The position numbers were made by a program, and so were the translations under genes. Source: a virus. From it: a stretch of 36,210 bases of DNA. Position 1 is the stretch's first letter; each line of letters begins with the position of its first letter. The DNA is taken from IMG/VR virus record IMGVR_UViG_3300030019_000550, positions 1-36,210 of that record; one strand, written 5' to 3'. The notes under the pieces were generated by a model. It saw only the letters and a program-made list of their open reading frames with translations, did not search any database and was not told where the DNA came from. This document shows positions 1,331 through 24,000 of the stretch, in pieces.

Positions 1331-1380
1331 ATTATAATATATTTTGCATACGAAAGCAAGGTATTTTGTGTGCAAAATAT
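1331..1380 (-). promoter_or_regulatory. Promoter with operator copy 1, driving the late regulator
   Basis: On the minus strand TTGCTT (1354-1359) stands 17 bp before TATAAT (1331-1336). The -35 box is part of the repeated 13-mer CCTTGCTTTCGTA (1349-1361). A perfect 10-bp inverted repeat, ATATTTTGCA (1339-1348) and TGCAAAATAT (1371-1380), flanks the operator. It is likely repressed in the lysogen by the same protein that controls the copies at 7450, 13706, 18535 and 23983. Confidence 0.7.
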
Positions 1381-1381
1381 A

Positions 1382-1570
1382 TTATTTTTCTCCTAAATGA
1401 TCTAACCATTCTATATATTTATTTAGTTCTTCTTTATCCATATTATCTAAGTCGGATTGTTCTATTCCAAAATCATTCTCATACTCTCTTATTATTTCTC
1501 TCCATGTTTTGGTATTATCTGTTTTTACTGTATCGCATACGCTTTTATCTAACCATTCTTTTTCTATCAT
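1382..1570 (-). CDS. Hypothetical acidic protein (62 aa)
   Basis: Not recognised. A highly charged protein without membrane segments or cysteine clusters. The ribosome site AGAGGTG precedes the ATG. It is the last gene of the long early operon that starts at the promoter near 7432. I rate it real because of the ribosome site and tight spacing to the upstream 31-aa gene. Confidence 0.6.
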   Translation of the reverse strand: MIEKEWLDKSVCDTVKTDNTKTWREIIREYENDFGIEQSDLDNMDKEELNKYIEWLDHLGEK

Positions 1571-1585
1571 CCCTTACACCTCTTT

Positions 1586-1681
1586 CTATTTTTCCAATAA
1601 TGCTTTTAGTAATCTTGTCTGTTCTTCTAGCAATCTTTGTATATTTTTTAATATTTGTTCTGAATTATTTGCTGATGACAT
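1586..1681 (-). CDS. Very small helical protein (31 aa)
   Basis: The ATG at 1679-1681 is preceded by AGAGGTG. The peptide is mostly one amphipathic helix with leucine spacing (ILKNIQRLLEEQTRLLKALL). It may be a regulator or partner-binding peptide. Its neighbours are four bases (upstream YopX gene) and sixteen bases (62-aa gene) away, which supports translation. The function is unknown. Confidence 0.5.
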   Translation of the reverse strand: MSSANNSEQILKNIQRLLEEQTRLLKALLEK

Positions 1682-1684
1682 ATT

Positions 1685-2155
1685 TTACACCTCTTTCTTA
1701 ATCATATCTGCATTTTGGAATATATTACCAACTATTTCTAATTCTTCTATCCTGTCTAATCCTAGTTGTGTTTCTTGCCAGTACCCTCTGATATTATAGT
1801 TATATTCTAAATACATATTGTTGCTTTTATCTTTCTTTTTTACTACATAAAACTCTTTTTTATGATCTTTGCTTTTCTCATATCCATATGTTGGTCTTGG
1901 CTCCTTTAATATATCCCCTAAATAGCTTTCTTTTTTATTTATGTCTTTTACTCCTGTTGAGGGTGAAACTGTTTTACTATCTACTTTATGCCAGTCCTCC
2001 GCTCCATATCCATCATCGTTATCAATATACGTGCAATTATCCTCTATAGGGATTATTACATCTCTATAGTCTTCGTCTGCATCTTCCATATGAATTAAAT
2101 TCCCATATACCCACTTTTTACTGTATAACCCTAATCCTCTGAATTTATATTCCAT
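1685..2155 (-). CDS. YopX family phage protein
   Basis: About 156 aa. The N-terminus EYKFRGLGLYSKKWVYGN matches the YopX-type opening, where phage proteins read as a short request/description of a protein feature set. The C-terminus EELEIVGNIFQNADMI matches the family's conserved VIGNIYEN-like end. The biochemical role of YopX proteins is unknown; they are common in early regions of Firmicute phages. GGAGG lies 8 bases before the ATG at 2153-2155, whereas the ATG at 2168-2170 overlaps that site, so I use the inner start. A second, shorter YopX member lies at 19110-19535. Confidence 0.7.
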   Translation of the reverse strand: MEYKFRGLGLYSKKWVYGNLIHMEDADEDYRDVIIPIEDNCTYIDNDDGYGAEDWHKVDSKTVSPSTGVKDINKKESYLGDILKEPRPTYGYEKSKDHKKEFYVVKKKDKSNNMYLEYNYNIRGYWQETQLGLDRIEELEIVGNIFQNADMIKKEV

Positions 2156-2170
2156 CCCTTTACCCTCCAT

Positions 2171-3046
2171 CTATAATAATTCTGTTAGTCTAATAATTAT
2201 ATCTTTTAAACTTTCTACTTTTTCTTTTAGCTTCTCTTGTTGTCCTGCTTCCATATGTCTAAAGTTAGATAATAGCTTTGTTGCTGTTTCTGCTTCTTTT
2301 TGTGCTTCTATCCAATTATAATAGTATTCGTTGGTTGATTTGCCTAGTCTTTCTATCTGTTCGTTCTGTGATTCTATTATCTTATTTAATTTTTCTACCG
2401 TCTCAATATCTTTGATTATTACTGAATCTTTAATCTTTAAAACTGATTCTAAATGCTTTATTGTACTATTTTTTAATTCTATTCCTTTATTTAATCTTTC
2501 ATTTTCTGATTTAAGTTTGTTATATTCTTCTTCATAGTTTATTGGTTCTTTTAATCTTTCTTTACATCCACAATTTTCTGTTACTGATGATATATTGCAT
2601 TTATTTTCTTTATTGTGGTTGCATTTTTTATTGTAGCACTTAAGTTCTTTATCCTGTGCATGTTCTAGTTGTTCTTTTTCTTTTGGTACTGGTTTGAATC
2701 TGCTTTTATGTGCTAAATACTTCGTTTTAGTATCATCTATTATAAAATACCCTCTGTTATTTTCTTCTAATATCTCATATTTTTTATTTAGAGTGAGAAA
2801 TTTTTCTTGGCTTTCATTATCTATACATTCCACAATTAGAATATCTTCTTTTACTTCTTCAAATAGACAACAAGTTTCTACCGATTCATTTCTACTATCA
2901 TCTACTACTAAATACATCCCAAAAGAGTTATTAGGTTTCATTTTACTTTCTTCTTTCCATTTTTTAATAGCTTCATATTCTTTTTTAAATGTTAAATTTG
3001 TACACTCTTTATTTATACATCTTACCTTTATTGTTTTGTCTTCCAT
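2171..3046 (-). CDS. Coiled-coil protein with Cys clusters (291 aa)
   Basis: Not recognised. Residues 1-20 hold a CINKEC pair; residues 125-165 hold a dense cluster (CYNKKC, CNI, CGC) that could bind one or two metal ions; residues 170-291 are a long coiled coil. The start ATG overlaps the stop of the upstream 54-aa gene by one base (TAATG), so the two are translationally coupled. The layout suggests a zinc-bearing scaffold or regulator, but no function can be given. Confidence 0.6.
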   Translation of the reverse strand: MEDKTIKVRCINKECTNLTFKKEYEAIKKWKEESKMKPNNSFGMYLVVDDSRNESVETCCLFEEVKEDILIVECIDNESQEKFLTLNKKYEILEENNRGYFIIDDTKTKYLAHKSRFKPVPKEKEQLEHAQDKELKCYNKKCNHNKENKCNISSVTENCGCKERLKEPINYEEEYNKLKSENERLNKGIELKNSTIKHLESVLKIKDSVIIKDIETVEKLNKIIESQNEQIERLGKSTNEYYYNWIEAQKEAETATKLLSNFRHMEAGQQEKLKEKVESLKDIIIRLTELL

Positions 3047-3210
3047 TATTTATTCACCCCCTTCAACATATCTTCTCTATCCTGTAATTCCTTTAGGTGT
3101 TTTGCATTAACTATTATCTCATGCCCTATATCACATTCTTTTACTCGAAATCTATGTTGCAGATAATTACATGAATAAAACTTATTACATTTTTCACCTT
3201 TGCACTCCAT
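3046..3210 (-). CDS. Small Cys-rich protein (54 aa)
   Basis: Four cysteines in the first half (CKGEKC, C at about 14, C at about 26) suggest a small metal-binding fold. The gene is linked by one-base TAATG overlaps to both neighbours: its stop overlaps the 291-aa gene's start, and its start overlaps the stop of the 105-aa gene. Such coupling strongly suggests it is translated. The function is unknown. Confidence 0.6.
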   Translation of the reverse strand: MECKGEKCNKFYSCNYLQHRFRVKECDIGHEIIVNAKHLKELQDREDMLKGVNK

Positions 3211-3527
3211 TATAATTCATCTCCTTTGATTTCATAAAAAGCAACTCTGTTAACTCCTTCTGCAAATCTTATCTTTTTAAATTCGTCATGGTTTGTAGTT
3301 ATAGCTAAGTATTTAAATTTATCCATTTGTGATTGGCTTACTTCAAATAGTTCATTCGCCACTTTCATATCAACCAATATGCTAAAATCCGCCCCACATT
3401 CTATAAAATAATCTAGCATCTTATAGGCTTGAAGTAATTTGTCTTTTCGATCTAGTTTTTCTTTTTTATCAATCTTATTCTGTGGGAACTGAATAACTTT
3501 CATAAGTTGCATTTGTTCTGATTTCAA
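3210..3527 (-). CDS. Hypothetical protein (105 aa), TTG start
   Basis: Not recognised. A mixed alpha/beta protein without cysteine clusters apart from one Cys near residue 44. The start is TTG at 3525-3527, preceded by GGAGG at seven bases; the ATG at M6 has no such site. It sits 2 bases after the dCTP deaminase-like gene and is coupled to the next gene by a TAATG overlap. Confidence 0.65.
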   Translation of the reverse strand: MKSEQMQLMKVIQFPQNKIDKKEKLDRKDKLLQAYKMLDYFIECGADFSILVDMKVANELFEVSQSQMDKFKYLAITTNHDEFKKIRFAEGVNRVAFYEIKGDEL

Positions 3528-3529
3528 GG

Positions 3530-4168
3530 TTATTCCTCCAATTCATTATATGTTTTACAATTTTCAGCTTCATGTTCTCCTTGAAAGTATTTGCTACGAT
3601 ATAAACAACAACCACTTTTATTAATGCATTTCTTACATTCTTTCTTGTTATTTTCAAAATCTTTATACATTAGACTTGGTTGTACACCTTTATTATCTTG
3701 ATATTTACCACTCTTATAAGCTTCGTATTCGCCCTGTATTGAGTGATAATATATTTGACATATTTCTGTATCTGCATATATTCTTATTGGTTGTACACAC
3801 TGTAATTCTAATGTCCAATATCCTTTAAATCCTACATCACCAAAACCAGCTGTTACATGAATATATAAACCTAATCTTCCTATTGAGCTTCTACCTTCTA
3901 ACATTGGTACATAATTGTTTGTTTCTGTATATTCTACCGTTCTTGCTAAATAAAGCACTCCAGGTTGTAAAACCATTCCTTCCAGTGGAATAATAAACTT
4001 TTTATACTTATTTTCTTTCTTCATATCTAGGATATCTTCATCATATATCAATATTTCATTATGCAATCTTAAATTATAACTGTTTGGATTCAGTTGCTTA
4101 TGGTTATAAGGATTTATAAATATATCTTTATTTAATATTTTTTCTATTTCTTTTCCGCTTAATATCAT
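3530..4168 (-). CDS. dcd: dCTP deaminase / dUTPase-family protein with Cys-rich tail
   Basis: A protein of 212 aa. Residues 1-170 match dCTP deaminases: NPNSYNLRL near 28, GRSSIGRLGL at 92-101, HVTAGFGDVGF from 104, and WTLEL where E121 corresponds to the catalytic glutamate, then YQDNKGVQPSLMYKD. These enzymes convert dCTP to dUTP (some go on to dUMP), feeding thymidylate synthesis. Residues 176-212 form an extra tail with Cys178, 181, 187, 188 and 204 that ordinary dCTP deaminases lack; it could bind metal or a partner. The start overlaps the upstream gene's stop by four bases. Whether it is mono- or bifunctional cannot be decided here. Confidence 0.85.
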   Translation of the reverse strand: MILSGKEIEKILNKDIFINPYNHKQLNPNSYNLRLHNEILIYDEDILDMKKENKYKKFIIPLEGMVLQPGVLYLARTVEYTETNNYVPMLEGRSSIGRLGLYIHVTAGFGDVGFKGYWTLELQCVQPIRIYADTEICQIYYHSIQGEYEAYKSGKYQDNKGVQPSLMYKDFENNKKECKKCINKSGCCLYRSKYFQGEHEAENCKTYNELEE

Positions 4169-4659
4169 TTATTTTGCTCTCCTATTTCGATTTTATTTTC
4201 TAAGTGTATTTCTCTATATATTTCAGAAGTAAATACCCAATCTCCAATATCTTTAAACTCAAAATCTGCATCACCACTAGTATAAAAATATTTTTCTTTG
4301 TTTAACTCTATTCTATATACTGTGCTTTCAAAGAATCTATAATCTTCATCTATACAATACGCTGTATCTCCAAGTTGAAACTCTTGTTTTTCTTTGTCAG
4401 AAATCACTTCTATATCTTTTAATCCTAAGACACACCAACCCTTTTTAAGTCCACAATCTTCACCCTCATAGATATAAGTTACCTCTTTTGTTATTTCTTG
4501 TCCTGTATATGCTCCTAGGTTATATTCTATTACCGCTGTGTCTACTTTTAATGGCGAATATTCTTTTAATAAAAGTGTATCTCCAACTTTATAATCGCGA
4601 TCTTTTTTTCTTACTACTTCTTTAAAGTATTGTGGTAGTATCTTTAATTTATGTTGCAT
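4165..4659 (-). CDS. DUF3850 (ASCH-like) protein lacking its signature motif
   Basis: A protein of 164 aa. The N-terminus HKLKILPQYFKEVV followed by KKDRDYKVGDTLLLKEY and YTGQEITKEVTYI is typical of DUF3850, a member of the RNA-binding ASCH-like superfamily. Family members carry GKKTFEIRKN between these parts; here about nine residues are missing, so the G-x-K-x-x-E-x-R motif is absent. Residues 95-164 form a second unknown domain with two YF/WVF-rich beta segments. It is probably part of the early operon and may be non-functional in its original role. The start overlaps the upstream 53-aa gene by one base. Confidence 0.7.
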   Translation of the reverse strand: MQHKLKILPQYFKEVVRKKDRDYKVGDTLLLKEYSPLKVDTAVIEYNLGAYTGQEITKEVTYIYEGEDCGLKKGWCVLGLKDIEVISDKEKQEFQLGDTAYCIDEDYRFFESTVYRIELNKEKYFYTSGDADFEFKDIGDWVFTSEIYREIHLENKIEIGEQNK

Positions 4660-4820
4660 TATTTAACCCTCCATTTGTTTGTAAATTTAATATATTTCTT
4701 AAGTTTTATTACTATTAATCTATGTGTTATTTTACATACAAACTCAATTGTGCACTTTGTTTTTACATTGTATTTAGTCCCTGTAGTCATATCTGTTAAA
4801 TTTGTTATTTCTGTATGCAT
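4659..4820 (-). CDS. Small basic protein (53 aa)
   Basis: Preceded by TTAGGAGGGTAA, a strong ribosome site. It is basic, with two Cys and a KITHRLIVIK stretch that recurs as KITPRLIVIK at the end of the 38-aa gene at 23593-23709; the coding DNA of those stretches differs at only about three of 30 positions. The stop overlaps the DUF3850 start (TAATG). Function unknown. Confidence 0.55.
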   Translation of the reverse strand: MHTEITNLTDMTTGTKYNVKTKCTIEFVCKITHRLIVIKLKKYIKFTNKWRVK

Positions 4821-4828
4821 TTACCCTC

Positions 4829-4954
4829 CTAATAAACTACTTTTAGTCTTAATTGCTTTTTCTTAGCTGCCCATTTACAAGCTGACCATGGAAGTTTTGT
4901 TTTATTTCTAATTTTCTTTGCTTCTTTACTTAGTTTGTTTTGATATTTTGTCAT
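4829..4954 (-). CDS. Small Lys-rich protein (41 aa)
   Basis: A strongly basic peptide with a tryptophan pair (LPWSACKWAAKKK) that could bind nucleic acid. GAAGGAGAT lies about ten bases upstream of the ATG at 4952-4954, and the stop overlaps the ribosome site of the next gene. No family is recognised. Confidence 0.5.
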   Translation of the reverse strand: MTKYQNKLSKEAKKIRNKTKLPWSACKWAAKKKQLRLKVVY

Positions 4955-5010
4955 AATGTTTTTATCTCCTTCGTTATTTTTTAGTATTGTGAATTTTATA
5001 CTTTAACTAA

Positions 5011-5223
5011 TTAATTTTTCCATAGCAAATAAGTACCATCTGCTTGTAAATTTCCGTTTTCCCCTATTACAATAAGTTCCTTATCAAACTTTACTGCCAC
5101 TAAGTCTTTATATTTGCCTATTCCTGTTTCTTTAACAGTTCCTAAATCTCCAATTTTTAAGTTAGTATCATAATCGCCAATACGGTCAAATATAATATAT
5201 TTAACTTTATCATCAATATTCAT
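5011..5223 (-). CDS. Small beta-barrel-like protein (70 aa)
   Basis: The pattern DKVKYI, KIGDLGTVKETG, DLVAVKFD, TYLLW suggests a small KOW/SH3-like barrel of a type seen in many phages (G-T-V turn between strands). GGGTGAAGC precedes the ATG. No function is assigned. Confidence 0.55.
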   Translation of the reverse strand: MNIDDKVKYIIFDRIGDYDTNLKIGDLGTVKETGIGKYKDLVAVKFDKELIVIGENGNLQADGTYLLWKN

Positions 5224-5252
5224 ATTGCTTCACCCTTTCTACACATTACATA

Positions 5253-6272
5253 CTACAAATTAAATACTTGCTTTATTTCTTTAACATTTCCATTTATATT
5301 AAATCTTGACCTTTTAATCTTTTCTAAATCTTTATTGAGTTCTTCTATTTCTTCTTTTATCCTGTCCTCTTTAGCTTGCAATTCGCTTTCTGTTGTTTTT
5401 CTTTCTTCTTCTAACTCTATTATATCTCTATATGTTTTCCCCTCTGTGCTGACTCCCTCTGATGTTTTAACATATATACCATATTCACCCTGTATTTTTA
5501 TAGTTTGTTCTAATATTTTTAGTTTTGATGGTGCTTTAAATTCAAATGCACTTATTTTTACTTCATCAGCTAATCCAGATGCACTAATTAAATTATTTGG
5601 TGTGATTGGTTTCATTACTTCATTTGCTAATATCTTTCCTACGTTAGATTCTTTTTGGTTTTTTTCTATTTCTTTTGGTGTTACTACATATGGAAGTTCT
5701 GTTGTGAGTTCTTTTAGTGCTTCTAAATCTTCTTTTCTTACTGGTACTGGTTCTTTAGTTTCTCCCAGCACCTCTTTTATTTCCTGTTCTGCTATAGCTT
5801 TTTTAGGTGCATGTTTATTTACTATCCCCATTTTGCTTTTAACTTGTAGCCACATAACGTCTAATTCTGCAAATGGTAGTTTATATTCTTTTTCTAGTAT
5901 CTTAATTGATTCTACTTTGTCTTTATTAGCTTTAATAAGTGATCTCATTTTTGATTTTATTGAGCTTTCTTGTGCTTTTATCATTTCTATTACATCCCCT
6001 CTATGTTCTTCTAATTTGTTCTTATAGTCTTCTATATACGTACTTGTTTCAGCTATTATTTTTTCTATATCTAATAGTTCTAAATCTGTATTATTTGCTA
6101 TTGATGAAATATAACAACTATCTAATATAATGTTTGTAATCCTATCATTTTCGATTACTTTCTTTTCAACTTCATATTGAATAAAATTCTTTTTTGTTGG
6201 AGATAAACTTTTATACCACGTATTTAAATTGTTTGTAGTTCTTTCCAGTTCCCTTCTTTGGTTTCTATCCAT
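5253..6272 (-). CDS. Large coiled-coil hypothetical protein (339 aa)
   Basis: Not recognised. An N-terminal basic helix (DRNQRRELERTTNN), long helical segments between 60 and 160, a Pro/Glu-rich middle (residues 165-215), and a second coiled coil at 285-330 (ELEEERKTTESELQAKEDR). AGGAGGGGTGAA precedes the ATG. Composition suggests a cytoplasmic scaffold. It is the largest unrecognised early gene in this operon. Confidence 0.65.
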   Translation of the reverse strand: MDRNQRRELERTTNNLNTWYKSLSPTKKNFIQYEVEKKVIENDRITNIILDSCYISSIANNTDLELLDIEKIIAETSTYIEDYKNKLEEHRGDVIEMIKAQESSIKSKMRSLIKANKDKVESIKILEKEYKLPFAELDVMWLQVKSKMGIVNKHAPKKAIAEQEIKEVLGETKEPVPVRKEDLEALKELTTELPYVVTPKEIEKNQKESNVGKILANEVMKPITPNNLISASGLADEVKISAFEFKAPSKLKILEQTIKIQGEYGIYVKTSEGVSTEGKTYRDIIELEEERKTTESELQAKEDRIKEEIEELNKDLEKIKRSRFNINGNVKEIKQVFNL

Positions 6273-6282
6273 TTCACCCCTC

Positions 6283-6886: not shown

Positions 6887-6887
6887 T

Positions 6888-7431: not shown

Positions 7432-7467
7432 ATTATATTCTTATTTGACTACGAAAGCAAGGCATTT
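7432..7467 (-). promoter_or_regulatory. Early promoter with operator copy 2
   Basis: On the minus strand TTGCTT (7455-7460) stands exactly 17 bp before TATAAT (7432-7437). The -35 box lies within CCTTGCTTTCGTA (7450-7462). A terminator lies just upstream, so this promoter starts the operon running from 7384 to 1382. Confidence 0.75.
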
Positions 7468-7496: not shown

Positions 7497-7524
7497 TTAA
7501 AAGGAAGGTGTTTAGTCCTCCCTT
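7497..7524 (-). terminator. Rho-independent terminator of the ssb/MCP operon
   Basis: On the minus strand AAGGGAGG pairs with CCTTCCTT (8 bp, one G-T pair) around an 8-base loop and is followed by TTAATTT. It lies between the 71-aa gene and the next operator-promoter. Confidence 0.65.
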
Positions 7525-8080: not shown

Positions 8081-8512
8081 TTATCCAAATAACTTACTAT
8101 CATCAATTTTAAATTTAGTTCTTATTCTTCCTTTGTAATATTTGTTCCATTCCTCTATATCCACTTTCACTTCTTTTATCTCTATTGGATTCATTTCTTG
8201 ATATTGCATCTTATAATTTGCATATGTTATTGGGTTTATATCTAGTTTATCTGCATATGTCTCATTATCACCATTATAAACTGCTCCTGGATTCTTTTTA
8301 AAAAAGTCAAATGTTAATTCTCTTTTACTTTTTGCTTTTGGTTTGTTTTTTATATTATCAAGATTTGCTTTTGAATTGCGATGGGAATAATATAATAATG
8401 CAGTTGATTTTTTATAATTAAATATCTCCATCATATCGCTTACAACTATTCTTTTGGATTTATTTTTATTTTCTTCAAGGAACTTAACTACTTTAATTGG
8501 CATTTCCCTCAT
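8081..8512 (-). CDS. Putative DNA-binding protein (143 aa)
   Basis: Basic with two regions that resemble helix-turn-helix: residues 22-50 (IVVSDMMEIFNYKKSTALLYY) and 75-110 (NETYADKLDINPITYANYKM). These look like recognition helices of phage small terminase or regulator type, but no family is clear. GAGAGGTG precedes the ATG. It follows ssb in the operon. Confidence 0.55.
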   Translation of the reverse strand: MREMPIKVVKFLEENKNKSKRIVVSDMMEIFNYKKSTALLYYSHRNSKANLDNIKNKPKAKSKRELTFDFFKKNPGAVYNGDNETYADKLDINPITYANYKMQYQEMNPIEIKEVKVDIEEWNKYYKGRIRTKFKIDDSKLFG

Positions 8513-9248: not shown

Positions 9249-10112
9249 TTATTTAAATAATTTTGTTATTTCGCTTGTTTTCCCAGAAATTTCATTGTTA
9301 GAAGCTGCTAATTCTTCGCTTGTTGCTGCTAGTTCTTCTGTAGCTGCTGCAACGCCTTCAACTTTTGCATCTATTATTGTTATATTCTCTATTCTTACTA
9401 CATTACTTTCTTTTAATTTAATAGCCATTTCGTTACTTTCTTTTGTATCTTGTGCCATTACTTTTACTTGTTTTTTAATATCTTCTATCATATTTCTGAT
9501 TTCTACACTTGAAAGCCTTGTTTGTTCTGCAAGTTTTCTTACTTCTGTCGCTACTACTGCAAAACCTTTTCCACTTTCTCCGGCTCTTGCTGCTTCTATT
9601 GCTGCATTTAATGATAATAAATTTGTTTGAGAAGCTATATTATTGATTGCTTCTGTAATTTTATTCATGTTATCCATTTTATTATCAAGATCATTTGTAT
9701 TTATATCTATGTTATTAATCTTATTGCTGAATACGTCCATAACTCCACTATTAGTTACTGCACTTTCTCTAGCACCATTTACCCTATAGCTTATATCTTG
9801 CATTGTAGAAGCTATCTCTTGTATTGTAGCGCTTGTTTGTTCTGTAGCACTTGCATTGTTGGAAATGGCTTGATTTATATACTCAATTTCTTCTGATAGC
9901 AGTCTTTCTTTTTCTTCTACTTCTGCTTTTATTAATTGTGCTTGGCTATCTTTTTCAATAATTTCATTTTGTAGCATTTTAATTTTTGAGTTTAAATCTA
10001 CAATCTCTAATATTCTTTTAGTTTCTTGTTTTGATAGTATTTGTTCCATTTCTCTTCTTACTAGTTCCTCTGCAATTTTGATACCTTTTTCGTTTCTAAA
10101 CATTTTTAACAT
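9249..10112 (-). CDS. Soluble methyl-accepting chemotaxis signalling protein
   Basis: A protein of 287 aa. Residues 80-287 form a chemoreceptor signalling domain: helical adaptation regions with [12 protein letters not shown]-type segments, and a near-perfect hairpin tip at 159-198 including [17 protein letters not shown] and [18 protein letters not shown], which in chemoreceptors contacts CheA and CheW. Residues 1-80 are a charged coiled coil without a sensor domain. There is no membrane segment, so it is cytoplasmic. AAAAGGGGTG precedes the ATG, and it is embedded between the RecU-like gene and the zinc-ribbon/ssb pair in the same operon. Its role in a phage is unknown; it could rewire host chemotaxis. 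Confidence 0.85.
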
Positions 10113-10650: not shown

Positions 10651-11688
10651 CTACTTTTCTATATAATTTATTACATTTTTAATTACAAAATTTACAGTCC
10701 CATCACCATTTATAACTATTTCAAATTTACTAGAATCATTATAAGCATTATCATTAATGTATAAATCTATTTGTTTATCAATATTTAATCTCACTCTTTT
10801 AAAATTCTTTTCAACCCAAGTTTTATCTACTGCAATATCTTCATTTAACCCCTGGTGCTTTATATAATTCGTGAAATCTTCTTCTATTTGTGGGTTTTCT
10901 GAAAATAATTCTGCTGCAACTTCATCTATATTAATAATATCTTCTTCTTTTAATTTATTTTTAATTGTTCTTCTAGTTATTTCTTGCATTACTGCATCAT
11001 CTGTTATGTTTTTTCTTATCCAGTTTTCAGATGCTTTCATAAAAGTTTTTGTCATATCTCTTTCATTTGTTATAATAGTTGCATCTAAGAATGTATTTAA
11101 TAAGTAATTTGCCCCATATTCATCCTCTTTGGAAGCTTTTTGCTTATCTAGTATCATTAAATTATAAGTTTCATCTTCTCTTATAGGTTTTAGAAATGCA
11201 GCTTTTTGTATTCTTTGTCCACTTCCAGGTAATCCTGCTAACTGTGGAATTATATCTACACCTATTTTTGAATCTATAAATTGAATCTCATGTGTAAAAT
11301 TCTTTATATAATCCATTTTTAATATTGCAATCATTGGTCCTTGGTCTGTAATAATTGAAACTATAATTAAATCAGCACTTGGAATATTGCAATTGCCTTT
11401 CATTATTGAAAATAATTGTCTTGCTAGTTCCTTGGATACATCTATTAGATCGCTTTCAGTTCCATTTAAATAATGTTGTACTGATTCTTTAATAATGCTA
11501 GTCCCTTTATTGAACTTTGCATATTTCAAATCTTCATCTTTTAAACATTTTTCTAAATGTCTATGAATAAATTTATATACATCTTCATTTAATTCTAAGC
11601 TATATTCATTTAAAACCGGTGCTTCTCCATTGCTATCTAGTATGTGGATTACCGCTTCGTTTATATTGATATCATTTATATATTCCAT
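10651..11688 (-). CDS. Nucleoid-associated protein (NdpA/YejK family)
   Basis: A protein of 345 aa, the full family length. The opening, INEAVIHILDSNGEAPVLNEYSLEL, and later SADLIIVSIITDQGPMIAILKMDY, FIDSKIGVDIIPQLAGLPG and AAFLKPI match the 37-kDa nucleoid-associated protein family. The bacterial members bind DNA on the nucleoid, but their exact job is poorly known. On a phage-plasmid it might compact DNA or counter host silencing. AGGGGGAATTAAAAC precedes the start. Confidence 0.75.
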   Translation of the reverse strand: MEYINDININEAVIHILDSNGEAPVLNEYSLELNEDVYKFIHRHLEKCLKDEDLKYAKFNKGTSIIKESVQHYLNGTESDLIDVSKELARQLFSIMKGNCNIPSADLIIVSIITDQGPMIAILKMDYIKNFTHEIQFIDSKIGVDIIPQLAGLPGSGQRIQKAAFLKPIREDETYNLMILDKQKASKEDEYGANYLLNTFLDATIITNERDMTKTFMKASENWIRKNITDDAVMQEITRRTIKNKLKEEDIINIDEVAAELFSENPQIEEDFTNYIKHQGLNEDIAVDKTWVEKNFKRVRLNIDKQIDLYINDNAYNDSSKFEIVINGDGTVNFVIKNVINYIEK

Positions 11689-12032: not shown

Positions 12033-12338
12033 TTATTTATTCTCTAATATACTTGTCCCATAGAGTCTTTCAGCAAAGCTTTTTAGCGCTTTGTTTTTCC
12101 TCTTGTATATAGTCTTTACTGTCACTCCAAATAGTTTTGTAAGGTCTTTTGGCTTTTCTCCATCAATACATATTCTTTGAATTATTTCTTTGTCTTCAGA
12201 CTCCATTGCTCCTAGAACTTTTTGAATTGTATACACTTCAATCTTATTTTTGCTTAATATTTGTGGTAGTATTTCCAAACAATTTACTGTCTCTTTAAAA
12301 TTGTTTAGTTGCTGCTCTGCTGTTTTTATGTAGTTCAT
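12033..12338 (-). CDS. Sigma-70 region-4-like regulator (101 aa)
   Basis: Residues 40-95 (MESEDKEIIQRICIDGEKPKDL, LFGVTVKTIYKRKNKALKSFAERL) form a sigma-4/LuxR-like helix-turn-helix with the YKRKNKAL recognition helix typical of phage activators such as Xpf or ArpU relatives. The N-terminus is helical. AAGGAGGTC precedes the ATG. It may be an early-to-middle activator; a second, larger relative is the late regulator at 608-1105. Confidence 0.65.
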   Translation of the reverse strand: MNYIKTAEQQLNNFKETVNCLEILPQILSKNKIEVYTIQKVLGAMESEDKEIIQRICIDGEKPKDLTKLFGVTVKTIYKRKNKALKSFAERLYGTSILENK

Positions 12339-12708: not shown

Positions 12709-13302
12709 TTATAATTTTATATTTGACCATTTATACCCTTTGTGTTTTATTCTTTTGCCTTTGCAGCACCTTGAAATACCATCAACTCTAAAACCTTCTT
12801 TTTGTGCCAAAGTCATAGAATCCCATTCTCTTACAAATTCCCATTTTAGCGAATATTGATACACCTTTATAGAATTTTTAACTGCTGCTTTCCTAATGCA
12901 CTCCTTCATTTTTTCTGTAAAAACTCCTGTCCTTGTCTTTACATATCTTTCAATTTTAGTACCATAATTATTATTATATTTACTTGTACACCATTCTAAA
13001 TTATTAGCTTTTGGGTTTGACCTATTTTCATCTTTATGGTTTACCATAGGATAATTATTAGGATTTGAAATAAATGCTATTGCTACAAGCCTATGAGATT
13101 GGTATCTTTTAGTCTTGCAATTTTTACTTAATCCTACTGTTAAATATCCATATTTACTTAAAAATTGTTTTAATATTTTTTCTTTAACTGTTCTAATCGC
13201 ATATTTGCTTCTTACTTTTCTTTCTAAACTTTTAAAACTCCCTAAATTGCTAACTTGGTATAATCCTTCATATCCTTCTATAGATTTCCAAATCTCTTTC
13301 AT
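12709..13302 (-). CDS. NUMOD4-HNH homing endonuclease
   Basis: A protein of 197 aa with the classic three-part layout. Residues 1-25 are NUMOD4 (IWKSIEGYEGLYQVSNLG); residues 68-112 are HNH with HRLVAIAFI, NHKDENRSNPKANNLEWCT, in which H89 and the Asn pair near 100-101 are catalytic candidates; residues 146-195 are NUMOD1-like (VYQYSLKWEFVREWDS, ISRCCKGKRIKHKGYKW). Freestanding enzymes of this type spread between phages by cutting alleles that lack them. Its 5' end overlaps the upstream HNH gene by 35 bases, so it probably inserted there. Confidence 0.9.
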   Translation of the reverse strand: MKEIWKSIEGYEGLYQVSNLGSFKSLERKVRSKYAIRTVKEKILKQFLSKYGYLTVGLSKNCKTKRYQSHRLVAIAFISNPNNYPMVNHKDENRSNPKANNLEWCTSKYNNNYGTKIERYVKTRTGVFTEKMKECIRKAAVKNSIKVYQYSLKWEFVREWDSMTLAQKEGFRVDGISRCCKGKRIKHKGYKWSNIKL

Positions 13303-13687
13303 TTAATTCCTCGCTTTCGTATGCTAGTTTACCGCCAAGTGTAGCTATTATAAAATCTTGTCTAGCAAATAGACCTTTATTCTGTTTCATAGTCTTACAT
13401 AAGCTATTAGCACTATTCTCGTTAATTCCTAATATAGTTTTTACTTCTTGCCTTGTATAATATTGCTTGTCTAATATAATTTCTAAGGTATTCTGCATCT
13501 GCATTTTTAATTTATTATCTAAATTATGTCCGTTTCTTCCGTGGACTCCATACTCTGACCTATGGTGGGTTGGACAAAGATATACTTTATTAAGCTCACA
13601 ATTAACTAAGAATTTAGCTTGTGACCTTTTTATAATGTGGTGTTCTTCAATGTTATTCATTGAACCGCAAACCTTGCAACACTTCAT
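13268..13687 (-). CDS. HNH-type nuclease with HTH tail (139 aa)
   Basis: Residues 1-57 form a compact HNH domain: CKVCGSMNNIEEHHIIKR (Cys4, Cys7, His16-His17) followed by LCPTHHRSEYGVHGRNGHN. Residues 75-110 resemble a helix-turn-helix (YYTRQEVKTILGINENSANSL). This combination recurs in phage early regions and may nick or cut DNA at a phage-determined site. AAGAGGTGAG precedes the ATG. The inverted operator pair lies immediately upstream. Confidence 0.7.
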   Translation of the reverse strand: MKCCKVCGSMNNIEEHHIIKRSQAKFLVNCELNKVYLCPTHHRSEYGVHGRNGHNLDNKLKMQMQNTLEIILDKQYYTRQEVKTILGINENSANSLCKTMKQNKGLFARQDFIIATLGGKLAYESEELNERDLEIYRRI

Positions 13688-13705: not shown

Positions 13706-13786
13706 TACGAAAGCAAGGCGGTTTGGATAACACCTTGCTTTCGTATCCCTTGAGTTAATATTATCACTTATCTAGTTATAATACAA
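13706..13786 (-). promoter_or_regulatory. Promoter followed by inverted operator pair (copy 3)
   Basis: On the minus strand TTGTAT (13781-13786) stands 17 bp before TAATAT (13758-13763). Just downstream are two copies of the 13-mer in opposite orientation, 13733-13745 and 13706-13718, separated by 14 bases. Unlike the other sites the operators lie at and after the start site. As RNA the two copies could also form a 13-bp hairpin ahead of the HNH gene. The plus-oriented copy has TTGCTT 18 bp from TATTAT, so a weak divergent promoter is possible. Confidence 0.6.
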
Positions 13787-14159: not shown

Positions 14160-14270
14160 TTATTTTCTACTTAATTCTCCTTGCTTTTGTAGAACTTGTA
14201 GAAAGGTGAGTCCTTTCAGTTCTTCTGCAATTTGTGTAGCTTTTTTATTTAACTTTGTTTTAACATTCAT
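14160..14270 (-). CDS. Very small basic protein (36 aa)
   Basis: The ATG at 14268-14270 follows the stop of the 45-aa gene by one base and has AAAGGAGATAAAT upstream. It starts NVKTKLNKKATQIAEELKGL and is basic and helical. Function unknown. About 75 bases without a recognisable gene follow before the zinc-finger gene. Confidence 0.45.
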   Translation of the reverse strand: MNVKTKLNKKATQIAEELKGLTFLQVLQKQGELSRK

Positions 14271-17274: not shown

Positions 17275-17877
17275 TTAATACAACTTAGTTTGTTGGAATT
17301 GTTTGCTTGATATCAATGCAGCTGATGTATTGATTAGTTCCATTATTCTTGGACCATCTTCTACCGCTGTTGATTCCCACTTATCAACACCTAACATTGC
17401 AAATACAAAAGTTTGAATAGCTATAAATTCATCATCTGTAAATGCTAATTGCTTGATTAACTTGTTATACTGTAATTTTTTACTATGGCTTGGTTTAAAT
17501 TGTCTCTTTGCTTCTTCTAATGAGATTTTAAAATCTTCTAGTTTATTTAATAAATTTTGAGTTTTAGATGTTTCTAATTGTTTTTCACATTGAATAAAAT
17601 ACTTTCTAGCTTCTTTTCCTTTTTGATTTTTCTCTATCATAGATAATTCTTTTGCCATATTTAAAGTTAATTCAAATTCGATTTTAGGTCTTCCACCTTT
17701 TTCAGATTTTTCGGTAAAACTCCTAAAATCAACGTCTTTGGCAAAATCATAATCAATTATCTTTCTTTGAATCCAATCTGTAAATTGCTCTTTTGATCCT
17801 AAGAACTCATGTAATTCTCTTCCACTTACTGTTCTTTCTCCACCTTCGCTAGTTTTTAATGTTATTAATTCATTCAT
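17275..17877 (-). CDS. AntA-type antirepressor
   Basis: A protein of 200 aa. Residues 1-100 are an AntA/AntB domain: RTVSGRELHEFLGSKEQFTDWIQRKI, DFAKDVDFRSF, and RPKIEFELTLNMAKELSMIEK with RKYFIQCEK. The remaining half is helical with no known family. AntA proteins counter the phage repressor and so promote induction. It lies second to third in the operon after the repressor-type promoter at 18516, consistent with a lysis/lysogeny role. Confidence 0.85.
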   Translation of the reverse strand: MNELITLKTSEGGERTVSGRELHEFLGSKEQFTDWIQRKIIDYDFAKDVDFRSFTEKSEKGGRPKIEFELTLNMAKELSMIEKNQKGKEARKYFIQCEKQLETSKTQNLLNKLEDFKISLEEAKRQFKPSHSKKLQYNKLIKQLAFTDDEFIAIQTFVFAMLGVDKWESTAVEDGPRIMELINTSAALISSKQFQQTKLY

Positions 17878-18476: not shown

Positions 18477-18515
18477 GTTCTCAACTCCTTTCGGCTTCCG
18501 TTTGGTTCTAATATC

Positions 18516-18552
18516 AGTATATTACTTTTTACCCACGAAAGCAAGGTATTTT
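18516..18552 (-). promoter_or_regulatory. Early promoter with operator copy 4
   Basis: On the minus strand TTGCTT (18539-18544) stands 17 bp before TATACT (18516-18521), within CCTTGCTTTCGTG (18534-18546). It lies between the terminator at 18590-18624 and the AbrB-like gene, so it starts the operon with AntA and the replication genes. Confidence 0.75.
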
Positions 18553-18589
18553 GCATAAATAAAAAATATATTTTTGTGATAAATTGTAT

Positions 18590-18624
18590 AAAAATAAGAG
18601 TGAGATTTATTATGTCTCACTCTT
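18590..18624 (-). terminator. Rho-independent terminator of the recT operon
   Basis: AAGAGTGAGA and TCTCACTCTT form a perfect 10-bp stem with a 9-base loop; the minus strand then reads ATTTTT. It follows the 108-aa gene. Confidence 0.85.
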
Positions 18625-18640
18625 GATGATTTTAAATTAT

Positions 18641-19082: not shown

Positions 19083-19109
19083 TTGTTTTATACCTCCTTA
19101 AAATTGATG

Positions 19110-19535
19110 CTAGGATTGTTCTACTAAATATTCATTTTCGTATGTGTTCCCTATAACTTCTATTTCGCTAATATAATTTTCTTCACAATCTTTTTCCCAG
19201 TATAATTGCGATAGTGGATAAACATCGTCATTCCAACAATTTTCAAATTCTTTATACATATCTATTTTGTCGCTACATCTAACTAGCATAAAACTTCCTA
19301 TTTCATATTTAATGTAATATTGATTTTTGTTAAATAGTACGATATCTGTTTCATAAATTTTTTTACTATTCTTATCTATTAATCCTGTATATTGCATTAC
19401 TTCATAACTTGCTAATTCTAAAATTTTATGAAATGGAATAATTTCGTCGGGATCTTCATAAATTACACTTTCAACGTTATAATGCATTGTATTTCCGTAA
19501 TTGTCCCACACTCTAAATTCTGTTTCTCTACTCAA
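19110..19535 (-). CDS. YopX family phage protein
   Basis: A protein of 141 aa. The opening FRVWDNYGNTMHYNVESV, the central YTGLIDKNSKKIYETDIVLF and the end EIEVIGNTYENEYLV are textbook YopX landmarks. The role is unknown. It overlaps the MBL-fold gene by eight bases and thus belongs to the recT operon. It is distinct from the longer YopX relative at 1685-2155. Confidence 0.85.
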   Translation of the reverse strand: MSRETEFRVWDNYGNTMHYNVESVIYEDPDEIIPFHKILELASYEVMQYTGLIDKNSKKIYETDIVLFNKNQYYIKYEIGSFMLVRCSDKIDMYKEFENCWNDDVYPLSQLYWEKDCEENYISEIEVIGNTYENEYLVEQS

Positions 19536-20229
19536 TTGTTAATCCTCCCTCTCCGATATATGTTTTAATTCCTGTTAGTTCTTCTATTTCTCGCCTATAC
19601 CTTGGTGGATCACCATTATCCCCACTGATATGAATAAGCGTTATATCTTTTGTTTCTGTTAAATCCCAACAACTTAAAGTTTCCTTTAAGGTTTCTAGGG
19701 ACATGTGGGTTGCTATAGTTCTTTTAGCTTTCCATACAGGCATTAAAGGTATGAAATCTTCACTGTAGTTGCATTCTATTAAAATATGATCGCAATTATT
19801 AAATCTATTTTTTACATAGTAACTATCGGTAATAAATAAAATTTTTCCTAATTCTTTATGATATATGATATATCCAAAAGGCTGACTTACATCATGTTGA
19901 GTATCAAAAGGTATTATCGTAAAATCTTCAATATTAAAGCTTTTGTTGTGCTCTACTACTTTATATCTATAGTTATCTATCAAGCTTATTTCTTCACCAG
20001 TTCCCTTTGAACCATAAATATCTATACCACATTTAATTATATCCTTTGCACTTTTGGAATGATCTTTATGCTCATGGGTTAGTAAACAACCTATAACCTT
20101 GCTCAAATCATAATCCAAGGCTTCTTTTATCTTTTTTATGTGTATTCCACATTCCAGTAATAATGTGCCTGTAGAAGTTTCAAGGGAATAAAAATTCCCC
20201 GAACTTCCTGTTGCATGTATCTTTATCAT
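19528..20229 (-). CDS. MBL-fold metallohydrolase
   Basis: A protein of 233 aa. LTHEHKDHS at 50-58 is the zinc-binding HxHxDH motif; FITDSYYV and IATHMSLETL provide the later metal ligands. It resembles the YycJ/VicX type, which may act on nucleic acids. Its ATG overlaps the recT stop by one base, and it is a common partner of phage recT genes, so it may supply a nuclease to the pathway (inference). Confidence 0.8.
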   Translation of the reverse strand: MIKIHATGSSGNFYSLETSTGTLLLECGIHIKKIKEALDYDLSKVIGCLLTHEHKDHSKSAKDIIKCGIDIYGSKGTGEEISLIDNYRYKVVEHNKSFNIEDFTIIPFDTQHDVSQPFGYIIYHKELGKILFITDSYYVKNRFNNCDHILIECNYSEDFIPLMPVWKAKRTIATHMSLETLKETLSCWDLTETKDITLIHISGDNGDPPRYRREIEELTGIKTYIGEGGLTIE

Positions 20230-21113
20230 TAAAATGGTTGATCTCCATCATCAATTAAACTTTGTTGTTTCTCTTGGTGTTCTACCTTCTCAACTTGATC
20301 TACTGGAATAATGTCTATAACTTCACCTTGATTTGCTTCTTGTTTAATTTCTTCTTGTACCTCGTGATTTGTTGATTCTATAATGTCTTTTTCATCATAT
20401 TCGTTAGTTCTTGACATGGTTTCTATTAACAGATCACTATCATCACTAGTGCATATAAAATTCTTACACGCTCTATTGATTACACTTTTTTTAGCCATTT
20501 CATCTGCAAAATTTGTATGTGCTTTACTTTGTCCTTTTGCTGCTCCTTGACTCCATGAGTTTCTAATTTGATTAATATTCATAACTTCAACATAATTCAA
20601 ACCATCTTCCATAACTACAATTGCATAAGCACCCTTTATTTTAGTTATATCTATATTTTCAAAACTTTGTTCATGCTTTGTAATTACTTTTAACCCTGTC
20701 TTTAAGTCTAATTCATAAGCAAATACATCATTTTCATAGATCACATTTGCAAATACATTCTTAACACCTTTTAATCTCTTAGTAGCTGATATATTCCCTA
20801 GATAAGATTTCATTAATTGAAGTTTTCCTCCAAATGGTATGAAATAACATTGCTTTTTTGCAGGTGAAAGTCCTTGTATTGTCATATCTAATAAGGCATT
20901 AATTATACTTGGTTGGCTGCAACTTACTAATGCAGCCTTACCATTTTTATCTATTGTTTCACTCAATATCAAGAAAGCACTTTTTAAAGCATTTGCATAG
21001 CTATATTGAGGGGGCATTGTTATATCCCCCGCTCCTTCTAATTCTTTTATTCTAGTTAAAACCTTGTCTGTTACATTCTTTTCTTGCACTGATAATTGTT
21101 TGTTATCTTCCAT
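20229..21113 (-). CDS. recT: RecT single-strand annealing protein
   Basis: A protein of 294 aa. PPQYSYANALKSAFLILSE, CSQPSIINALLDMTIQGLSP and KKQCYFIPFGGKLQLMKSYLG followed by SWSQGAAKGQSKAHTNFADEMA are RecT landmarks. It anneals complementary strands during recombination-dependent replication and repair. The C-terminus ends in DDGDQPF, resembling the SSB acidic tip. It overlaps neighbours by one base on each side. Confidence 0.95.
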   Translation of the reverse strand: MEDNKQLSVQEKNVTDKVLTRIKELEGAGDITMPPQYSYANALKSAFLILSETIDKNGKAALVSCSQPSIINALLDMTIQGLSPAKKQCYFIPFGGKLQLMKSYLGNISATKRLKGVKNVFANVIYENDVFAYELDLKTGLKVITKHEQSFENIDITKIKGAYAIVVMEDGLNYVEVMNINQIRNSWSQGAAKGQSKAHTNFADEMAKKSVINRACKNFICTSDDSDLLIETMSRTNEYDEKDIIESTNHEVQEEIKQEANQGEVIDIIPVDQVEKVEHQEKQQSLIDDGDQPF

Positions 21114-23110
21114 TATTTTATTACCTCAACTTTCAAATTTTTATTTTCATGTATTTTTAAACTTTTATCTTCGCTTACTTTTAATAAAATTAATTGGCTT
21201 TCTGTACTTTTAATTTTGTTTACACTTTCAGCATTATCTATAAATACTGGTGCATTTACCTTGTAGTGTTCGCATAATGTATTTAGTATAGATATCCCTG
21301 CGTTCATCTTAGAAGCGGTGTTTGCATCTGTAAAAGGCACACCGTTTATGGTAGCAATGCAAGTCTCTGAAATACCCCCATTAATTTGTTCTGAAAATAA
21401 TTTAAAACTTACTTCACCTTTAAATTTTTGATTAATAGTTGATTCTAATAATTCTACTTTAGTTTTTATAAACTCCTCTCCTAAGAATTGTTGTTTTTCA
21501 AGTTCTGCTATTTGGATATTTAGGTCTTTTTCTTCTTTGCTAAGTTGTTCAATTCTAACTTTTATATCTACATTTGTTTGTTGCTTGCCTAAAAGCTTAT
21601 CTGCGTTGCTCAATTGGTCTTGTAGTTCTTTCTTTTGAGTTATTAAACTACTATTATCATTTGATTTAAAATCGTTAATTTGAGCCTGTGTGCTTTCAAT
21701 TTGCGATTGAAGTTCTTTTTCACCTTCTATAACTGGTTCTACACAATCTATTTTTTGTTTTTGGTATTCTAATTCGGATAATTTAGTTTCTAACTCTGTT
21801 TTTTGAGTTGCCAAAACTTCTATATCACCGTTCCAATTAGTCAAGTCAACTTCACTATCTCTTATTTTTTCTTCATTTTTTTCAATATCATCTGCTAACG
21901 GCTTTCCTTTTGAACATATATAATTTAAAGTTTTCTTTTTGGCTACATTGAACTTGCTTTCTGCATCTGTTTTTATTTCTTCTATCTTTTCAATGTCATA
22001 TTCTCTGCCACATGCAGGGCAACTAACTAATGAATCGTCAAAATTGAATGGTATATCATTTTCTTTATGATAATCATTTAACAATTGTTGTTTCCTGTTT
22101 TTAGTATTTTCAACATCTAATTTTAATGAGCTAATGTATTTTTCAGTATTTTTAATACTTGATTGTGTGCTTGTAGTTTTAAACTCGAATTTTTGTATTT
22201 CTGATTTAATATTATTAATTTTTTCTTGTACTTCGTTTAGTGGCTTGTTAGCGTTTTTAAGTGCATCATTTCTTAATACGCTTAATTTGTCCTTTAGTCT
22301 AAATAGTTCTTCTTGTAGAACCAATTTCCCCTCGTTAGCCTTGCTTGAATCTGCTATTTGTTCATCAATTACGTTTATATCGTTCTGAAAAGCAACTTTT
22401 TGCTTTTCTAACTCTGTAAAATCCTCTGTACATATAAAAGAATTATTTTCATCTATTCTTGCAGGAATATCTTTAACTTTGTCTTTAAGTTTTTTAATTT
22501 TAAATTTAACCTTTTCATTAAAATCTTCTATATTTTTACCTTCCAACATAGCTAGTAATGGTTTTAGTTTTGAGTTGTAGTTTATAACGCTTTCCTCATC
22601 TAAATCTCCTATTATGTCAAGTAGTATCTGTCTTTGTTCTTTCCAGCGCATATTGGGAAAATATAAAGGATTAGTTAATAGCTTAAACATATTATCTTGT
22701 AATATTTCATCAATATTTTGCTTATAGTCCTTTTCTTTTAATGGAACATCATCTATCTCGTATATGGTAGGGCAACCATTTAATTTTCTTTCTTCTGCTC
22801 CTTTTTCTTTTTGCCATTTCTCTTTTAAAGTTCTTTTGAAAGTTTTTCTAACTCCATCAATTTCAAGTACACCAATAACACTATGCTCTAAGTGGTGAAT
22901 AATGTTATTATTTTCATCCAGTGTTTGAATATTGAAGTTTTTTGCATCTGTACTATCCTTACCAAAAAGCAACCAACAAAACGAATCAAATATACTGCTC
23001 TTTCCTGTTCCGTTATCTCCACTTATTTGTGTATTATCTCCAAAATTTATTAATTGTTCCTTAATTCCTTTGAAGTTTTTTAATTCTAAGCTTATTAATT
23101 TAATTTTCAT
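21113..23110 (-). CDS. SMC/Rad50-like ATPase with zinc hook
   Basis: A protein of 665 aa. Residues 1-45 carry LELKNFKGIK and Walker A GDNGTGKSS at 31-39. A long coiled coil follows, broken by CPAC at 364-367 in the middle, which matches a Rad50-type zinc hook. A second coiled coil leads to a Walker B-like PVFIDNAES near 621. The usual LSGGE signature is replaced by KMNAGIS. It stands upstream of recT, as in many clostridial phages, and may load or regulate DNA ends for annealing. GGGGAATG precedes the ATG. Confidence 0.85.
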   Translation of the reverse strand: MKIKLISLELKNFKGIKEQLINFGDNTQISGDNGTGKSSIFDSFCWLLFGKDSTDAKNFNIQTLDENNNIIHHLEHSVIGVLEIDGVRKTFKRTLKEKWQKEKGAEERKLNGCPTIYEIDDVPLKEKDYKQNIDEILQDNMFKLLTNPLYFPNMRWKEQRQILLDIIGDLDEESVINYNSKLKPLLAMLEGKNIEDFNEKVKFKIKKLKDKVKDIPARIDENNSFICTEDFTELEKQKVAFQNDINVIDEQIADSSKANEGKLVLQEELFRLKDKLSVLRNDALKNANKPLNEVQEKINNIKSEIQKFEFKTTSTQSSIKNTEKYISSLKLDVENTKNRKQQLLNDYHKENDIPFNFDDSLVSCPACGREYDIEKIEEIKTDAESKFNVAKKKTLNYICSKGKPLADDIEKNEEKIRDSEVDLTNWNGDIEVLATQKTELETKLSELEYQKQKIDCVEPVIEGEKELQSQIESTQAQINDFKSNDNSSLITQKKELQDQLSNADKLLGKQQTNVDIKVRIEQLSKEEKDLNIQIAELEKQQFLGEEFIKTKVELLESTINQKFKGEVSFKLFSEQINGGISETCIATINGVPFTDANTASKMNAGISILNTLCEHYKVNAPVFIDNAESVNKIKSTESQLILLKVSEDKSLKIHENKNLKVEVIK

Positions 23111-23196
23111 TTTTACATTCCCCCATGTTATAATATTTTTGAATATATTTTTAAGTTGCTAAGATTTACTTTGGTCGGTTTTCTTAGCTTCTTTTT

Positions 23197-23367
23197 TTAT
23201 CTTAGATATGTTATTGCAAGTTCTGTATTTTCTAAATATTCTTTTAGATCATCTTCTAACTTTTCAAATTTATCTACTAGAGAAGGGTTTTTAACTAATA
23301 TTTCTTCAACTTCTCCTTTTAAATCTGCTAAATCTTGTTTTAATGCTCCTATTTTATCAGTTAACAT
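23197..23367 (-). CDS. Small helical protein (56 aa)
   Basis: The ATG at 23365-23367 follows AGGAGTG. The protein is acidic and helical (LKQDLADLKGEVEEIL, FEKLEDDLKEYLENTELAI). After its stop another frame carries a basic tail (KKEAKKTDQSKS) that would fit as a C-terminus if one base were changed, so a small frameshift is possible. Confidence 0.55.
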   Translation of the reverse strand: MLTDKIGALKQDLADLKGEVEEILVKNPSLVDKFEKLEDDLKEYLENTELAITYLR

Positions 23368-23380
23368 TTCAATCACTCCT

Positions 23381-23578
23381 TTACTCGCTTAAATCATATA
23401 AATTAGATGTAGTTTCAGAATTTATTAAATTTCCTTCTTTATCAAAAGTAAATCTATGTCTGTGTAGCCATATATATTTTTCTGTACGCTCTAAATTTTC
23501 ACCGCATGCCCATTTTACGGTAGGTTTGCTGCTCTTTGCTTTTAAAAACATATTAATCATCATTTCAAAATCATTCAT
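23381..23578 (-). CDS. Hypothetical protein (65 aa)
   Basis: Not recognised. It starts NDFEMMINMFLKAKSSKPTV and has an aromatic/basic centre (YIWLHRHRFTF). I chose the ATG at 23576-23578, with AAGGAGTG upstream. It lies between two other small genes of the same operon. Confidence 0.55.
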   Translation of the reverse strand: MNDFEMMINMFLKAKSSKPTVKWACGENLERTEKYIWLHRHRFTFDKEGNLINSETTSNLYDLSE

Positions 23579-23592
23579 TTTAATCACTCCTT

Positions 23593-23709
23593 TTATTTTA
23601 TTACTATAAGTCTAGGTGTTATTTTTCTTTCAAATCCATCTTTACTTATCCATAAGATGCAATCTAAATATGTTATTCTTTGTTCAAATTCTTTACCTCC
23701 AATTTTCAT
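23593..23709 (-). CDS. Very small protein (38 aa)
   Basis: The ATG at 23707-23709 follows AAGGAGATG at about nine bases. It ends in KITPRLIVIK, near-identical in protein and DNA to a stretch in the 53-aa gene at 4659-4820, so the two are related. Function unknown. Confidence 0.5.
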   Translation of the reverse strand: MKIGGKEFEQRITYLDCILWISKDGFERKITPRLIVIK

Positions 23710-23723
23710 TGTTCTTCATCTCC

Positions 23724-23903
23724 TTAAGCTATTTTGTCTATTGTAGTTTCTAAAATTTCTGCTATTTGTTTTAATCTTTCAGTTGATGGTTTTCTTGTAC
23801 CAGTTTCCCAGGACTTATAAGTATAAAAACTTATATTAAGTTTTACTGCCATAAGTTCCAATGAAAAACCTTTTTTTTCTCTTGCTTGCTTCATCAATTC
23901 CAT
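23724..23903 (-). CDS. XRE regulator, Cro-like (59 aa)
   Basis: A complete helix-turn-helix of the XRE type: MKQAREKKGFSLELMAVKLN, ISFYTYKSWETGTRKP, STERLKQIAEILE. It is the first gene of the early minus-strand transcript, opposite the plus-strand XRE gene, the position of Cro. GGGAGGGAGA precedes the ATG and overlaps the degenerate operator copy at 23914-23928, so repression of translation or transcription there is possible. Confidence 0.75.
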   Translation of the reverse strand: MELMKQAREKKGFSLELMAVKLNISFYTYKSWETGTRKPSTERLKQIAEILETTIDKIA

Positions 23904-23913
23904 ATTTCTCCCT

Positions 23914-23928
23914 CCCCGCTTTCGTAGG
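23914..23928 (+). promoter_or_regulatory. Degenerate operator copy in the cro-like leader
   Basis: CCCCGCTTTCGTAGG matches 13 of 15 bases of the operator sequence seen at 13704-13718 read on the minus strand. It lies inverted relative to the copy at 23983-23994 and overlaps the ribosome site of the Cro-like gene. It may allow cooperative binding or looping. Confidence 0.4.
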
Positions 23929-23971
23929 CAGTAATGTTATGTAGGTGTAATACGTTTTGTGTGATACATTT

Positions 23972-24000
23972 AATATACACCCCCGAAAGCAAGGTGTCAA
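23972..24000 (-). promoter_or_regulatory. Main early promoter with operator copy 5
   Basis: On the minus strand TTGACA (23995-24000) stands 17 bp before TATATT (23972-23977), a strong sigma-A promoter. The operator CCTTGCTTTCGG (23983-23994) fills the spacer. It drives the Cro-like gene and the recombination operon. Confidence 0.75.

Follow-up and report, generated by a model that had tools for sequence, protein, structure and literature searches.

A recurrent 13-bp word at the promoters of a phage-plasmid as a predicted operator of lysogeny

How might one short DNA word serve promoters spread over some 22 kilobases (kb) of a viral genome, and which protein would read it? This question is raised by the IMG/VR virus record IMGVR_UViG_3300030019_000550, used here whole as the window (36,210 bases, 29% G+C), where a word of 13 base pairs (bp), CCTTGCTTTCGTA, recurs at the heads of the leftward early operons and ahead of a putative late regulator. 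Our analysis establishes that this recurrence is real, that it is not a product of chance and that its sites are well placed. We consider it likely that the word is the operator of a lysogeny repressor, an interpretation that draws on its positions relative to predicted promoters and genes.

Recurrence of the word

Exact copies of CCTTGCTTTCGTA are found on the minus strand at 1349..1361, 7450..7462 and 13706..13718 and on the plus strand at 13733..13745, and minus-strand variants lie at 18534..18546 (12/13, one mismatch) and 23982..23994 (11/13, two mismatches). A preliminary description of this DNA had listed the same sites, and all are present, the last with its start corrected from 23983 to 23982. 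Its observations that the copies always lie between genes and that the word is no obvious palindrome are likewise borne out, as all six core copies are intergenic, though intergenic sequence makes up only ~15% of the window, and the core is asymmetric, with inversion confined to the ends (RCC...GGY). When aligned, the six copies share the invariant core CCTTGCTTTCG within a wider consensus, RCCTTGCTTTCGTAGGYAAA.

The number of copies far exceeds expectation, with seven matches at up to one mismatch against 0.03 expected and ten at up to two mismatches against 1.0 expected. In 300 simulated windows (order-4 Markov), no 13-mer with at least three G+C reached four copies. A weight matrix gives 30-37 bits at the six core sites, scores that are inflated because the same sites trained the matrix, though the mismatch counts are independent of it and agree. 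The next scores are 19.1 at 13309 (plus strand), 15.4 at 23914 (plus) and 12.6 at 31753 (plus), to be read against maxima of 7 to 18.9 in random sequence. Two weaker copies can accordingly be added to those listed before, one within the random top tail (23914) and one slightly above the random maximum (13309); both are probably, though not certainly, real, whereas by the same comparison the matches at 14179 and 31753 are taken as chance. Five copies run in the sense of transcription, while that at 13733, and probably those at 23914 and 13309, are inverted. The region from 24.1 to 36 kb, which holds the iterons and the Rep3, ParM-like and lysis genes, contains no credible copy and none above the random level.

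Promoters and transcription units

At three sites the word supplies the -35 hexamer of a predicted minus-strand promoter. The copy at 1349 places TTGCTT (1354-1359) as the -35 before TATAAT (1331-1336) as the -10 and faces the putative late regulator (608..1141, minus strand; phrog_36, with a sigma-region-4-like C-terminus). The copy at 7450 combines TTGCTT (7455-7460) with TATAAT (7432-7437) at the head of the operon 7402-1382, and that at 18534 combines TTGCTT (18539-18544) with TATACT (18516-18521) at the head of an operon carrying AbrB-like, AntA antirepressor (17275..17877, minus strand) and replication genes. The preliminary description had given a 17-bp spacing for all three, and this is exact; for three of six sites to have a TATAAT-like hexamer at precisely this distance, p is ~4e-4. 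It had also placed the word in the spacer of the leftward switch promoter, TTGACA-CCTTGCTTTCGGGGGTG-TATATT (23972..24000, minus strand; 11/12 consensus), and here too the spacing is 17 bp, with the copy at 23982 forming the first 13 bases of the spacer. This promoter heads the operon of the XRE gene 23724, an ATPase and RecT. The arrangement at 13.7 kb is different, in that the word there is not a -35 and is placed downstream of a -10. The operon beginning at 13687 (RecU-like, SSB-like and other genes) has an inverted pair in its leader, with the copy at 13706 as the downstream arm; the mate at 13733, 14 bp away, closely follows a predicted weak promoter, TTGTAT-17-TAATAT, which has a TG extension (13758..13786, minus strand). 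Because the copies form an inverted pair, this leader also folds as an RNA hairpin (-26 kcal/mol); a reading of the word as an RNA element is nevertheless out, as three copies lie upstream of the transcription start. Of the weaker copies, that at 23914..23926 (plus strand, 11/13) precedes the ATG of the XRE gene 23724-23903 by 10 bp, and the possible copy at 13309..13321 (plus strand, 12/13) lies at the end of the gene 13268-13687, where it precedes the ATG of the HNH gene (12709-13302) by 7 bp.

Hairpins at 18.6 and 7.5 kb set the units apart. The first is a terminator hairpin (18595..18625, minus strand; -12.7 kcal/mol) followed by TATTTTTAT, which divides the first and second early operons, and the second a 9-bp hairpin (approximately 7498..7523, minus strand; -11.1 kcal/mol). 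Terminators had been said to precede two of the sites; hairpins do precede the copies at 18534 and 7450, but the latter has a poor U-run. The wider proposal is that the word coordinates all early operons together with the late regulator, and a shared site is well backed by the placing and spacing of the copies, by their statistics and by the lack of copies in the maintenance region. The five recognised units fit it, but several other early-region gaps of at least 100 bp are free of the word and could hold further promoters.

Copies placed over a -35, within a spacer and over a transcription start point to a protein that blocks transcription, and the absence of the word from regions that a plasmid prophage must express points to control of lysogeny. 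In the lysogen, the repressor would occupy five units together, namely the leftward switch promoter, the operon with the replication and antirepressor genes, the operons at 13.7 and 7.4 kb, and the late-regulator promoter. It would bind the -35 in three of these, the -35/-10 spacer in the switch and the inverted pair over the transcription start at 13.7 kb, so that RNA polymerase would be blocked everywhere simultaneously. Neither the repressor gene nor the Rep, ParM or lysis regions, all free of the word, would be controlled in this way. If the repressor were lost or titrated, perhaps by the AntA antirepressor encoded in the second operon, all units would be freed together.

Several features of the surrounding DNA merit description. 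The virus is of clostridial type, and the setting is that of a plasmid as well as a phage, for which phage-plasmid is an apt term: upstream of a Rep3 initiator gene and adjoining it are six or more iterons (ATAGGTGTAGTGATTTAAAC, 21-bp period; 26087-26386), which mark a plasmid origin, a ParM-like ATPase is encoded, and the leftward early region carries RecT, SMC-like ATPase, replisome-organiser and helicase-loader genes. The late regulator is preceded by a strongly folding leader of ~185 nucleotides (1142-1330; -31.6 kcal/mol), in which, on the minus strand, a U-run comes after a long AU-rich hairpin; this leader may be a second control point. The copy at 1349 lies inside a 22-bp inverted repeat (1334-1385, 91% complementary) directly after a stop codon, so that promoter, word and hairpin overlap. 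Among other proteins of the region, an early-operon protein of 287 amino acids (9249-10112) consists mostly of a chemotaxis-receptor signalling domain (MCPsignal, E 3e-34), which is unusual in a phage, and 10651-11688 encodes a homologue of the 37-kDa nucleoid-associated protein (NA37) with 57-67% identity to proteins in several viral contigs (L087-L093). A protein of 143 amino acids (8081-8512) appears by eye to have two helix-turn-helix segments and matches no PHROG or Pfam family; single-sequence structure prediction gave it a pLDDT (predicted local distance difference test score) of 33 only.

The candidate binder and competing explanations

Which protein would bind the word? By map position, the best candidate is the 64-amino-acid XRE protein encoded at 24098..24292 (plus strand), whose nearest solved structures are the ICEBs1 XRE regulator (7t8i) and the N-terminal domain of P22 C2, and we put its chances at about even. 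Its gene diverges from that of a 59-amino-acid XRE protein (23724..23903, minus strand), the first gene of the leftward early operon and Cro-like in position, with which binding is possibly shared. Both proteins consist of a single HTH_3 domain. The promoter of the 24098 gene, TTGACA-18-TATTAT (24049..24078, plus strand), is free of the word, which sits in the leftward promoter. The full proposal, that this 64-amino-acid single-domain protein reads an asymmetric 13-bp site and thereby holds down five units spread across 22 kb, the late regulator among them, is one that we offer tentatively, as somewhat short of an even bet.

Four considerations weigh against it. The word is asymmetric, while dyads are the usual sites of single-domain XRE repressors, P22 C2 among them. 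A direct repeat in the switch, GTGTAATAC / GTGTGATAC (GTGTRATAC; 23945..23967, plus strand), found nowhere else in the window, could itself be the XRE operator. The record is probably incomplete, as tail genes reach its edge and neither a terminase nor a capsid gene was recognised in the window; it is probably a fragment from which structural genes seem to be missing. Finally, the word was found in no relative, as described below, which leaves no evolutionary test. Some of these facts feed the strongest of the competing explanations, in which the word is still a repressor operator but is bound by a protein of the missing region or by an unannotated DNA-binding protein, the XRE pair using GTGTRATAC. 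This explanation overlaps with the XRE proposal on the role of the word and differs from it in the binder. It gains from the confinement of the GTGTRATAC repeat to the switch and from the larger size of repressors that are known to read asymmetric dispersed operators (183 amino acids and two DNA-binding domains in the L5 type, 283 amino acids in P1 C1). However, the 9-bp repeat is weak by itself (two found against 0.43 expected in the window), and the word lies in the promoter adjoining the XRE gene, the classical place for that protein's own operator; we regard a binder other than the XRE proteins as unlikely. The switch (23941-23967) also contains TAGGTGTAAT, which is identical to a 10-base stretch within the replication iteron at 26363; this hints that Rep or an XRE protein may act there.

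A second explanation retains the promoters but reverses the sign, making the word an activator or sigma-appropriation box that turns on delayed-early operons and the late regulator. Activator sites at promoters with a poor -35 are familiar from the T4 MotA box and the CII sites. The TTGCTT hexamer at the three promoters agrees with the -35 consensus at only three of six positions, the conserved word reaches well past it, and the window has two genes for sigma-region-4-like proteins (12033-12338 and 608-1141). The switch copy, however, lies in the spacer of a near-consensus promoter, which would need no activator, and the 13.7-kb pair lies beyond the -10, positions that do not suit an activator and together make one improbable. 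Among the proteins scanned, moreover, a MotA- or CII-family model was never a leading match. We judge activation distinctly less probable than a repressor other than the XRE proteins.

It is very improbable that the copies are dispersed partition or recombination sites with a secondary regulatory effect. Dispersed centromere repeats are known in the phage-plasmid N15, this genome has an actin-like partition ATPase, and no clear iteron array was found beside the gene for that ATPase; yet partition systems of the actin type normally rely on repeats that cluster next to the partition genes, and the copies lie only at transcription starts, with exact spacing to the -10. Least probable is capture of a host global regulator site, for although dispersed regulatory words can be host sites, the word matches no clostridial or Bacillus site known to us (LexA, CcpA, Spo0A, CtsR) and is absent in promoter context from 207 Clostridiaceae genomes.

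Relatives and known systems

The preliminary description had suggested a motif search at the promoters of related clostridial phage-plasmids; the word was found in no relative. Phage and plasmid collections held no near-identical DNA, XRE-based and Rep-based searches of viral contigs returned no relatives, and the relatives of Rep that genomes contain are remote and carry no such repeat. In IMG/VR the promoter-context pattern gave three unrelated single matches, which we read as chance. The closest relative of the early module (viral contig L086; ATPase 64% and RecT 76% identity) has neither the word nor a comparable dispersed intergenic repeat, and the other early-module (RecT, AAA ATPase) and ParM relatives examined contain no comparable dispersed intergenic word. 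As early-module relatives lack it, the word thus tracks the immunity type of the phage and not its early module, as an operator should. One apparent analogue, AAGGCACATGAAAGAA in a Clostridiaceae genome (G067; e.g., C101:35897-35957), was rejected as a genome-wide host repeat of ~360 copies when two mismatches are allowed. More than 50 copies of this small repeat are exact, the reversed control gives 4 against ~360, and some copies form inverted pairs ~45 bp apart. A viral contig (L007, 9514-12980) carries about four dispersed copies of AAGTGTAGAATCGACAA ~1 kb apart, a possible dispersed regulatory word.

We know of dispersed asymmetric operators in only a few phages, namely P1, the cluster A mycobacteriophages and SPbeta. 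Were a clostridial phage-plasmid to add a case apparently unrelated to these, it would point to a preference of phage-plasmids for repression across the whole genome; the word itself offers a directly testable determinant of immunity. If a 64-amino-acid XRE protein does read an asymmetric 13-mer, it presents a compact problem in DNA recognition that is worth a structure.

In layout, the locus resembles a Lambda/P22-type switch, with an XRE repressor gene divergent from the early operon and the word in the region they share, and within such a layout the word would be the operator of the XRE protein. It departs from this type in its operators, which are dyad-symmetric in Lambda/P22 switches, whereas the 13-mer core here is asymmetric. 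The 24098 protein is related in sequence to the XRE repressors of P22 (C2) and ICEBs1; the operators of P22 C2 are dyads grouped at its own switch, and it is not known to use a dispersed asymmetric word. In SPbeta, also a Firmicute phage with a short repeated element at dispersed promoters, the master lysogeny repressor MrpR acts on SPBRE, a short repeat at about ten such promoters (PMC10516654). MrpR has a tyrosine-recombinase fold, and SPBRE is a 15-bp motif. No family of that repressor type appeared among the ~50 window proteins scanned with Pfam, in a record that is likely incomplete.

The mycobacteriophages L5 and TipsytheTRex have 13-bp operators and stoperators in many dispersed intergenic copies, some at promoters, and the L5 repressor is a 183-amino-acid monomer with two DNA-binding domains (PMC9283540). 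The likeness lies in an asymmetric, dispersed, intergenic 13-bp word. The L5 sites, however, keep a single orientation and also occupy short intergenic spaces inside operons, whereas here the copies stand at operon starts in both orientations. No L5-sized repressor (~180 amino acids, a helix-turn-helix plus a second DNA-binding domain) was recognised in the window, where the candidates have 64 and 59 amino acids.

P1, itself a phage-plasmid, comes closest in logic. Its C1 repressor acts through 22 dispersed asymmetric 17-bp operators and controls lytic replication and the late activator, and antirepressors exist (PMC8546580). Among the annotated P1 operators, Oref and Oc1d lie in spacers, Ossb and Oc4 over a -35, OrepL over a -10, and Oc1ab is an inverted pair, so that one asymmetric word is used at promoters in spacers, over promoter boxes and as inverted pairs, much as here. 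The P1 operator consensus, ATTGCTCTAATAAATTT, also contains TTGCT but beyond this is unrelated to our word, and it has only three 14/17 matches in the window (715, 19115 and 33624), none at a site of the word. No significant blastp or phmmer match to C1 was found among the 68 proteins of the window, in a record that is possibly incomplete. The present system further differs in having fewer observed sites, a 64-amino-acid XRE protein as its candidate repressor, ParM-like partition and Rep3 replication. It would thus work like P1 C1 without being a member of that system. Should the single XRE protein indeed exert this control, which we hold as tentatively as the proposal itself, it would represent an independent invention of the dispersed-operator logic of P1 and L5 with a much smaller repressor.

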